The notes under the pieces are model-generated. The model searched no databases. It was given only the letters and a program-made list of their open reading frames with translations, and was not told where the DNA came from. This document shows, one piece after another, positions 30,476 to 32,418 of a stretch of 64,000 nucleotides of DNA; positions within the stretch are counted from its first letter, which is position 1, and each line of letters starts with the position of its first letter. The position numbers and the translations under genes are program-made. Source of the stretch: Aminobacterium mobile DSM 12262 (GTDB lineage: Bacteria > Synergistota > Synergistia > Synergistales > Aminobacteriaceae); contig NZ_JAFZ01000001.1 in assembly GCF_000526395.1 (NCBI RefSeq), positions 1 to 64,000 on the forward strand. The letters are read 5' to 3'.

Positions 30476-30504
30476 TTGACAAAAAAAATAGGCTTTCGTA
30501 TAGT
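30476..30504 (+). promoter_or_regulatory. Strong promoter of the cysE-cysK leader
   Basis: Consensus TTGACA (30476-30481), a 17-bp spacer and TATAGT (30499-30504). Transcription would begin about 30511, 22 bases before the leader-peptide ATG. Confidence 0.85.
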
Positions 30505-30532
30505 GAACTTTACGAGAGGAGCGATTGCTATT

Positions 30533-30583
30533 ATGAGTCAACATGGAGTAACGTTGTTCTGTTGTTGTGGGAGGATGATTTAA
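30533..30583 (+). CDS. Cysteine-rich leader peptide (attenuator)
   Basis: A 16-codon reading frame encodes MSQHGVTLFCCCGRMI with three consecutive TGT Cys codons at 30560-30568. It begins just after the predicted transcription start and has AGAGGAG 11 bases upstream of ATG. It precedes alternative RNA hairpins, an intrinsic terminator and the cysteine-synthesis genes cysE-cysK. By analogy with his, trp and leu leaders, a ribosome stalled at the Cys codons when charged tRNA-Cys is scarce would change RNA folding and permit read-through. The peptide itself probably has no other function. It is the tail of a longer open frame, but the promoter lies inside that frame, so only this part is transcribed from it. 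Confidence 0.8.
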   Translation: MSQHGVTLFCCCGRMI

Positions 30584-30591
30584 CCATCCCC

Positions 30592-30703
30592 CGTAGCGTG
30601 TAGAGAAGGCTGCGGTGGACATATGTCCCGTTGTGGCCTTAAAAACTCGCTACGACTCTATAATTTCATTCGCTTTATATGATGGGGAAAATTACACAAC
30701 GGG
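30592..30703 (+). promoter_or_regulatory. Alternative RNA pairing region of the cys attenuator
   Basis: A rod-like hairpin is bounded by CGTAGCG (30592-30598) and CGCTACG (30648-30654); inside it AAGGC...GGAC (30606-30620) pairs with GTCC...GCCTT (30625-30640) through several G-U pairs. The inner segment CCCGTTGTG (30627-30635) is instead fully complementary to CACAACGGG (30695-30703), which contains the first half of the terminator stem. The segment can therefore act as an antiterminator strand. A small hairpin GGATG/CATCC (30573-30577 with 30585-30589) overlaps the leader stop codon and could link ribosome position to the switch. Pairings are read by eye and not energy-tested. Confidence 0.7.
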
Positions 30704-30732
30704 TTTGCCTGAAAGGGCGAGCCCGTTTTTTT
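30698..30732 (+). terminator. Attenuator terminator before cysE
   Basis: A 12-bp stem (AACGGGTTTGCC with GGCGAGCCCGTT, two G-U pairs, 6-nt loop) runs into seven Ts at 30726-30732. It stands between the leader peptide and cysE, and its left arm can be captured by CCCGTTGTG at 30627. Confidence 0.88.
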
Positions 30733-30754
30733 ATTGAGAGAGGAAGTGATGCCT

Positions 30755-30817
30755 ATGGAAATAGATTGTCCGTGTACCTGCAAATGTAAACAGACCATTT
30801 CCAGGAGGTGTCAGAAA
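30755..30817 (+). other. Cys-rich in-frame segment preceding cysE
   Basis: After the attenuator, ATG 30755 with AGGAAG eight bases upstream opens a frame encoding MEIDCPCTCKCKQTISRRCQ, five cysteines in 21 codons, and runs without a stop into cysE. The cysE ribosome site AGGAGGTG (30803-30810) lies inside it. It is either an N-terminal extension of serine acetyltransferase or a second regulatory leader read through the cysE start. ATG 30749 and TTG 30734 are further upstream starts in the same frame. Confidence 0.6.
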
Positions 30818-31477
30818 ATGAGAAAAAATAGTTTTTTACAATCAGCTTGGGAAACACTCAAGGCTGATGTTCAGGCAATACCCCAAAATGATCCCGCCTT
30901 TAAAGGAGGAGTGGGAGGATGGATGGAAGTATTTTTATGCTATCCAGGTCTTCACGCCATTATGGCTCATCGACTTATACATTTTCTTCACGCTCAGCTG
31001 CACATACCTCTTCTACCAAGGCTCTTGAGCCAAATTATGAGATGGCTTACCGGCATTGAAATTCACCCAGGCGCCATTATCGGGAAGGGATTTTTTATCG
31101 ATCATGGCATGGGGATCGTTATAGGAGAGACAGCGGTTATAGGCAACAATGTGACTCTGTATCACAGTGTAACTCTTGGTGGAACAGGAAAAGAGCGCGG
31201 GAAACGTCATCCTACCGTCTGCAATAACGTCATGATTGGGGCAGGAGCCTGCCTTTTAGGGAATATTACAGTGGGGGAAGGAGCTAAAATCGGCGCTGGC
31301 AGCGTGGTGGTAACAGATGTTCCTCCAGGAACAACTATCGTAGGTATTCCAGGCATGGCACTTCAATATCACCGAAAGATACGGCACACAATGGTTCAAG
31401 AAGATCTTCTGAAAAGAATAGAGATTTTAGAGAAAGAATTAGCCATACTAAAAAATAATGCAAAGGAGGCAGCATAA
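30818..31477 (+). CDS. cysE: Serine O-acetyltransferase
   Basis: CysE makes O-acetylserine from serine and acetyl-CoA, the first step of cysteine synthesis. The core begins at ATG 30818 after the strong AGGAGGTG, giving 219 residues. Seen: an N-terminal helical region (SFLQSAWETLKADVQAIPQNDPAF), HRLIHFLHAQLHIPLLPRLLSQI, then the left-handed beta-helix: GIEIHPGAIIGKGFFIDHGMGIVIGETA, VTLYHSVTLGGTG, HPTVCNNVMIGAGA and IGAGSVVVTDVPPGTTIVGIPG. A C-terminal coiled helix (EDLLKRIEILEKELAILKNN) follows. cysK begins 2 bp downstream. Expression is probably set by the leader attenuator. Confidence 0.94.
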   Translation: MRKNSFLQSAWETLKADVQAIPQNDPAFKGGVGGWMEVFLCYPGLHAIMAHRLIHFLHAQLHIPLLPRLLSQIMRWLTGIEIHPGAIIGKGFFIDHGMGIVIGETAVIGNNVTLYHSVTLGGTGKERGKRHPTVCNNVMIGAGACLLGNITVGEGAKIGAGSVVVTDVPPGTTIVGIPGMALQYHRKIRHTMVQEDLLKRIEILEKELAILKNNAKEAA

Positions 31478-31479
31478 TA

Positions 31480-32418
31480 ATGATCTTTCGCACAGATAAG
31501 ATAGCGTTGCGCAACCTTATAGGACAGACTCCTCTTTATATGTTCAGACCTATAGAAAAAGGTGCCACCATAGCGATAAAACTGGAGGGGACAAATATCG
31601 GAGGATCTGTAAAAGACAGGGCTGCCTGGGGAATGCTCCGATATGCAGAGGGAAAGGGAATGCTGCACTCAAACACAACCCTCGTAGAACCCACTTCGGG
31701 AAACACGGGTATAGCATTAGCTTTGCTCGGTCAGGCATTAGGCCTCCGCGTTATTCTTACAATGCCTGAATCCATGTCCATAGAACGTCGATCGGTGCTC
31801 CGTGCCTATGGGGCTGATCTCCAGCTCTCTCCTGCTCAAGAGGGAATGAGAGGAGCTATTTCTTTGGCCCAACAGATTCTAAAAGAAATACCGGGAGCGT
31901 ATATGCCAGATCAATTCAATAACCCGGGAAACCCTTGGGCTCATCGTATCACTACCGGGCCAGAAATTCTTTCTGATTTAAATGGACACTCTATAGCTGC
32001 TTTTGTTGCAGGGATAGGGACAGGGGGGACTCTGTCTGGGACAGCCGCTTTGTTGAAAACATGTTATCCCGAAATGGAGATTGTAGGGGTGGAACCTGCT
32101 AATAGTGCTGTATTAAGCGGTAAACCAGCTGGTTCTCATAAAATACAGGGAATTGGAGCAGGGTTTATACCCGGCACTCTTCGGCGAGAACTTCTCACTA
32201 AAGTTCTTCCTGTGGAAGATGAAGCCGCTCTCGATACAACTCAATGGCTTGCTCGAAGACATGGGCTTTTTTGCGGCATATCCACAGGAGCTAATATCTG
32301 GGCTGCTATGGAAGTGGCAAAAAAAGTCTCCCCTGAGGAAATTATAGTCACTATTGCCTGTGACAGAGGAGACAAATATTTAAGTACTGAAGCCTTTTCT
32401 TCCACCGCTCGAGATTAG
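31480..32418 (+). CDS. cysK: Cysteine synthase (O-acetylserine sulfhydrylase)
   Basis: The PLP enzyme joins O-acetylserine and sulfide to give cysteine. The 312-residue protein shows LIGQTPLYMF, the PLP lysine in NIGGSVKDRAAWGM (about residue 45), PTSGNTGIALALLG, AGIGTGGTLSGTA (phosphate-binding loop), IQGIGAGFIPGTL, and CGISTGANIWAAM. The ribosome site AAGGAGG lies at the end of cysE, so the pair is a tight operon. Sulfide could come from the cysteine desulfidase or from outside. A terminator follows 29 bp downstream. Confidence 0.94.
   Translation: MIFRTDKIALRNLIGQTPLYMFRPIEKGATIAIKLEGTNIGGSVKDRAAWGMLRYAEGKGMLHSNTTLVEPTSGNTGIALALLGQALGLRVILTMPESMSIERRSVLRAYGADLQLSPAQEGMRGAISLAQQILKEIPGAYMPDQFNNPGNPWAHRITTGPEILSDLNGHSIAAFVAGIGTGGTLSGTAALLKTCYPEMEIVGVEPANSAVLSGKPAGSHKIQGIGAGFIPGTLRRELLTKVLPVEDEAALDTTQWLARRHGLFCGISTGANIWAAMEVAKKVSPEEIIVTIACDRGDKYLSTEAFSSTARD

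Follow-up and report, generated by a model that had tools for sequence, protein, structure and literature searches.

A Probable Cysteine-Codon Attenuator in the Leader of cysE–cysK in Aminobacterium mobile

The 64,000-nucleotide stretch of the Aminobacterium mobile DSM 12262 genome analyzed here (the window) contains, ahead of the cysteine biosynthesis genes cysE and cysK, a leader that we read as a ribosome-mediated transcription attenuator: an element that would tune the two genes to the supply of charged tRNA-Cys by means of a six-segment logic. From the sequence data we place the probability of this reading at roughly 0.87. The parts of the element are present and conserved, three of its pairings (A:B, B:C and C:D) covary, and the two strands of another (D and E) coevolve. 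Judged by the searchable literature the attenuator is apparently new for this group, the kind of attenuator being already known. A preliminary description of the locus had proposed a ribosome-mediated attenuator responding to Cys-tRNA; we find no other reading that comes near it, and it came through the comparison with related genomes.

Organization of the cysE leader

All features lie on the forward strand and are given in window coordinates. A sigma-70 type promoter (TTGACA-17-TATAGT, 30476–30504) matches the consensus at 11 of 12 positions and is unchanged in both same-genus relatives, L003 and L004 having identical hexamers and spacing; promoter-like sites accompany 40 of 54 leaders, compared with 13% of shuffles. 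The predicted −10 element ends ∼29 nt 5′ of the ATG of a 16-codon ORF (30533–30583, stop codon at 30581), the predicted translation product of which is MSQHGVTLFCCCGRMI. Codons 10–12, the putative regulatory codons, read TGT TGT TGT (30560–30568) and specify three successive cysteines. A crude search returned an SD-like 4-mer 5′ of only 25 of 51 leader starts, a point against the attenuator reading. Downstream are cysE (serine O-acetyltransferase, 30818–31477; TIGR01172, 230.2 bits against a cut-off of 210.65) and cysK (cysteine synthase A, 31480–32418; TIGR01139, 366 bits against 350.95): both exceed the cut-offs of curated models, as expected from the earlier assertion that the next genes make cysteine. 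The promoter, the ORF with its three Cys codons and the two complementary strands discussed below were likewise all found where the preliminary description had placed them.

The region from 30511 to 30735 is strongly folded (z = −6.35; 0 of 200 shuffles were equally stable). Six segments are distinguished, lettered A–F (equivalent to s1–s6) after the naming used for the his operon. Segment A (GGGAGGATG, 30569–30577), recovered by RNAalifold and by covariation, is the 5′ arm of A:B and would be covered by a ribosome that has stalled on the Cys codons. Segment B (30585–30597) includes the 3′ arm of A:B, CATCCCCC, which overlaps CCGTAGC, the partner of C: in A:B, 30569–30577 pairs with 30585–30592, and in B:C, 30591–30597 pairs with 30609–30615. 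Segment C (GGCTGCGG, 30608–30615) is predicted to pair with B in the ON state or with D in the OFF state. Segment D (30627–30638) consists of the antiterminator strand CCCGTTGTG overlapping TTGTGGCC, the partner of C; C:D joins 30608–30615 to 30631–30638, and D:E joins 30627–30635 to 30695–30703. Segment E (30695–30710) unites CACAACGGG, the partner of D, with the 5′ arm of the terminator (30698–30710), and segment F (30715–30732) comprises the 3′ arm (30715–30727) and a run of seven T residues (30726–30732). The position and T7 tail of the terminator are as first described; its hairpin (30698–30727, dG −21.5) has 13 bp by our count rather than 12.

The antiterminator strand CCCGTTGTG (30627–30635) is the perfect complement of CACAACGGG (30695–30703). 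Compared with dinucleotide shuffles of the spacer, the energy of this duplex has a z of −3.2 and a p of 0.005, the lowest value reachable with 200 shuffles.

Further elements surround these segments. The strand CGCTACG (30648–30654) is complementary to 30592–30598 and forms an outer stem that stabilizes C:D in the window. The apical loop of C:D carries the motif [CT]AUA (30620–30623), found in 36 of 49 leaders where 4.9 would be expected and kept even where the stems differ; perhaps it is a polymerase pause or a loop motif. The ribosome-binding region of the leader (30517–30539) is complementary to 30654–30677, on the 3′ side of segment D, and a similar complementarity is seen in both same-genus relatives. 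Such pairing could shut a leader that is not being translated.

A relay of alternative pairings

This arrangement leads us to infer ribosome stalling and conditional termination, with charged tRNA-Cys as the signal. Given enough Cys-tRNA, the ribosome would reach the stop codon (30581) and cover B, so that C:D forms; E would then be free to pair with F, and transcription would end at the terminator, near 30732. Were Cys-tRNA scarce, the ribosome would stall at codons 10–12 and cover A, allowing B:C to form; D, thereby released, would pair with E (CCCGTTGTG:CACAACGGG) and block the terminator, and RNA polymerase would enter cysE. In the event of no translation, A:B, C:D and E:F would all form and transcription would stop.

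A four-segment reading of the trp type was considered and rejected: a stalled ribosome cannot reach the hairpin that holds 30627–30635. The antiterminator strand lies ∼60 nt 3′ of the Cys codons and of a ribosome stalled there and, because a ribosome stalled at 30560–30568 reaches only to ∼30580, a relay via B:C is needed. The preliminary description had proposed a mechanism of three strands. Its alternative pairings of 30627–30635 stand; as a complete account it does not, the B:C relay being absent from it.

Distribution of the leader

The comparative set comprised 188 genomes of the phylum, with 59 cysE genes of the window's type. A Cys-rich leader ORF precedes 56 of these: in 54 the Cys codons are consecutive, and in two (L006 and L007) they take the form Cys-X-Cys. 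As far as the terminator, the loci share one layout. Runs of at least three Cys codons, in a leader ORF no more than 320 nt from cysE, are found at 49 of the 59 orthologues compared with 0.4% of dinucleotide-shuffled upstream regions, and are therefore not a matter of chance. Among distinct leaders, 51 of 53 have runs of two to five Cys codons, the other two being Cys-X-Cys. Across the phylum the codons vary synonymously (TGT 132, TGC 29), which indicates selection on the amino acid, that is, on the reading of cysteine. Apart from their cysteines, the peptides are completely different from one family to the next. In all 56 cases a terminator hairpin separates the leader from cysE; its T tract is poor in a few (L022, for instance). 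Both same-genus relatives keep the two features that the preliminary description had singled out for comparison, the complementarity of the antiterminator strand as well as the Cys codons; the latter persist in almost every family of the order.

Three lineages with this cysE have no Cys leader (L019, L130 and L131), and by eye have a promoter-like sequence near cysE instead. Family f11 falls outside the order, so that an origin of the attenuator within the order, followed by loss in L019, is possible. Searching the 188 genomes with a covariance model of the leader gave matches in 29, always before cysE and one per genome; the sole exception is a second copy in genome G067, where (L125, contig 4) an extra leader stands before a shortened cysE that is followed by a transposase-like reading frame. 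The divergent leaders in family f4 escape the model and were located via cysE. A strict DNA pattern recovered only some of the loci, together with one false match (L124).

A second, longer cysE that lacks a Cys leader is common among genomes of the phylum (L024–L031 and L161–L169). None of the 17 examined genes of this type has a comparable leader, and the short CC-containing frames seen at two of them (L028 and L167) resemble chance occurrences. The absence of a Cys leader from this second type suggests that the serine acetyltransferases are differently regulated. Beyond the phylum, a scan of 78 cysE loci produced one doubtful CCC (L069).

Covariation and coevolution of the pairings

In 22 leaders from nine lineages, B, C and D lie at offsets of +31 to +36, +42 to +50 and +61 to +73, respectively, from the first Cys codon. 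Paired cells make up 95.5% for B:C, with four pairs changed on both sides, and 88.4% for C:D, with three; both percentages are inflated, the B, C and D strands having been assigned by hand. Covariation scores were 0.350 against 0.216 for B:C, 0.342 against 0.238 for C:D and 0.230 against 0.152 for A:B (0 of 500 shuffles in each instance). RNAalifold, given only the alignment of 18 leaders, found A:B and B:C unprompted. At one position of C, G gives way to A or to U and both B and D change to match, the pattern that a strand alternating between two partners would leave.

The D:E pairing was assessed by permutation among lineages. Pairing within lineages is stronger than in mismatched combinations between lineages (z = −4.1, p ≤ 0.0002, 24 groups): as the terminator changes between lineages, D tracks its sequence. 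A shuffle test on individual sequences is weak owing to their GC-rich composition, and the lineage permutation is the better test. In families f9, f2 and f7, and in several genera of f4, antiterminator pairing is no better than chance.

Folding with the ribosome masked

Switching was modeled by equilibrium folding with the footprint of the ribosome masked. Averaged over the 22 leaders, the probability of B:C once C has been made is 0.93 with the ribosome stalled at the first Cys codon and 0.11 with the ribosome at the stop codon; that of C:D once D has been made is 0.39 and 0.87, respectively. The antiterminator, scored as E paired upstream, reaches 0.46 in the stalled state compared with 0.22 at the stop. 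The switch holds across footprint sizes (Wilcoxon p 0.002–0.010), and its effect peaks with the ribosome at the Cys codons, not at start or stop.

For the window itself the modeled RNA behaves as a switch until D has been made: with the ribosome stalled, B:C has a probability of 0.83 and C:D of 0.05; with the ribosome at the stop codon the values are 0.00 and 0.96. Once 30648–30654 has been made, the outer stem (30592–30598 with 30648–30654) restores C:D in every state, and pairing of the ribosome-binding region with 30654–30677 also favors OFF in all states. At equilibrium the antiterminator state is ∼4–14 kcal/mol less stable than the OFF state. Folding with the leader bases masked, as the preliminary description had proposed, reproduces the switch on average over the 22 leaders and in the window as far as D, and returns OFF for the window at full length. 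Because equilibrium favors OFF after the outer stem has been made, the ON state of the window must, on this model, be reached by kinetic trapping, or else the model is incomplete. This modeled preference for OFF is the main weakness of the attenuator reading.

A second Cys-rich stretch before cysE

Between the terminator and cysE lies a further Cys-rich coding stretch, MPMEIDCPCTCKCKQTISRRCQK (30749–30817), in frame with cysE and running into it. It begins MPMEIDCPCTCKCK and has counterparts at four other loci (L003, L004, L013 and L017); the genus keeps it as MPMExDC, family f10 as VESGCGCC. In four instances the stretch is in frame with cysE; in L004 it overlaps out of frame. Cysteine might be checked twice, at the terminator and then in translation of 30749–30817, or the stretch might be a regulatory Cys-rich N-terminal extension of CysE, although we consider such roles unlikely.

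Alternative explanations

Could the Cys codons act at translation instead, a stalled ribosome exposing, or coupling to, the ribosome-binding site of cysE, with the terminator incidental? The poly-Cys leaders of mycobacteria, which were predicted in PMC1262725, use translational attenuation according to PMC13236596. In the genus of the window and in one further family, moreover, the second Cys-rich stretch extends over the start region of cysE. An incidental terminator, however, is hard to reconcile with a hairpin that is present wherever there is a leader, has a T tract in nearly every case and coevolves through its 5′ arm with an upstream strand. Leaders of the mycobacterial type have a leaderless start and lack an intrinsic terminator, whereas that of the window has a promoter upstream and a strong terminator. 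We regard purely translational control as very unlikely.

The variation among leader peptides bears on another possibility, that the nascent CCC is an arrest peptide. Stalling would then depend on a metabolite or on redox state, not on tRNA charging. Consecutive cysteines where a nascent chain ends could in principle be sensitive to redox state or metals; yet arrest peptides require specific residues, and here the non-Cys residues are unconserved between families, while the number of Cys residues ranges from two to five, as codon counting predicts. The chance that arrest explains the leader is accordingly very slim. Sensing of Cys-tRNA before cysE is, by the preliminary description, usually the work of T-boxes, and cysE is under their control in other bacteria. 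This, with the strong structure of the RNA, is what can be said for a T-box or small-molecule riboswitch beside which the Cys-rich ORF would be coincidental. We find such a riboswitch hardly credible: Rfam, including its T-box covariance model, gave no match to the leader at gathering thresholds or at E ≤ 1, in line with the earlier statement that the leader is not a T-box, and divergent lineages all have Cys codons in common rather than a compact aptamer. The attenuator remains the preferred reading, the leader combining an ORF with codons for the amino acid that the operon produces, an intrinsic terminator and mutually exclusive pairings that covary, weakly in some lineages.

Significance and relation to known systems

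With this leader, cysteine synthesis in a group of anaerobes would come within the scope of ribosome-mediated transcription attenuation, by way of a six-segment relay whose other known example is the enterobacterial his operon, here in unrelated sequence. Within the order the leader accompanies this cysE in most of the families that possess the gene, is essentially single-copy and belongs to one cysE type only; it therefore offers a clean natural series for the evolution of the relay. It also helps to predict which serine acetyltransferase answers cysteine demand in these genomes.

As the preliminary description had supposed, the searchable literature gave no account of such a leader in Synergistota. 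A 2019 survey of noncoding RNAs that took in Thermovirga lienii (PMC6429828) says nothing of cysteine in its main text; a listing in its supplements is possible. The same description had named mycobacteria as the home of poly-Cys leaders. That is correct, but the prior art is wider: uORFC-8-2, predicted before cysS in Rhodobacterales, also combines Cys codons in a uORF with a U-run terminator (PMC8632094).

Poly-Cys leaders have been predicted in actinobacteria with no conserved terminator (PMC1262725), and mycobacterial ones were shown to work at the level of translation (Canestrari 2020, cited in PMC13236596). Like the cysE leader, these are short ORFs with runs of Cys codons ahead of cysteine genes; the mycobacterial ones differ in being leaderless (by the title of Canestrari 2020), translational and without a conserved terminator. 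The uORFC-8-2 motif shares the Cys-codon uORF, two stems and the U-run terminator, but has two Cys codons, controls Cys-tRNA synthetase and occurs in alphaproteobacteria; the accessible part of PMC8632094 does not describe a six-segment relay.

With the trp attenuator of E. coli the leader would share the principle (PMC1183508) that the position of the ribosome on the regulatory codons selects antiterminator or terminator. The trp leader has four segments, whereas that of cysE has an extra relay hairpin, its antiterminator strand lying so far (∼60 nt) beyond the Cys codons. The nearest parallel is the his attenuator of Salmonella and E. coli, with its six-segment alternatives: B:C and D:E when the ribosome is stalled, E:F otherwise, and A:B when the leader is untranslated (PMC4046918). 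The his leader has seven His codons in a row compared with three Cys codons here, and the sequence is unrelated, as are operon and phylum; the likeness is an analogy of design for which no homology of sequence is claimed. It takes in a 16-codon leader peptide, a run of regulatory codons and the same alternative stems (PMC4046918), with A:B, C:D and E:F on the one side and B:C and D:E on the other.
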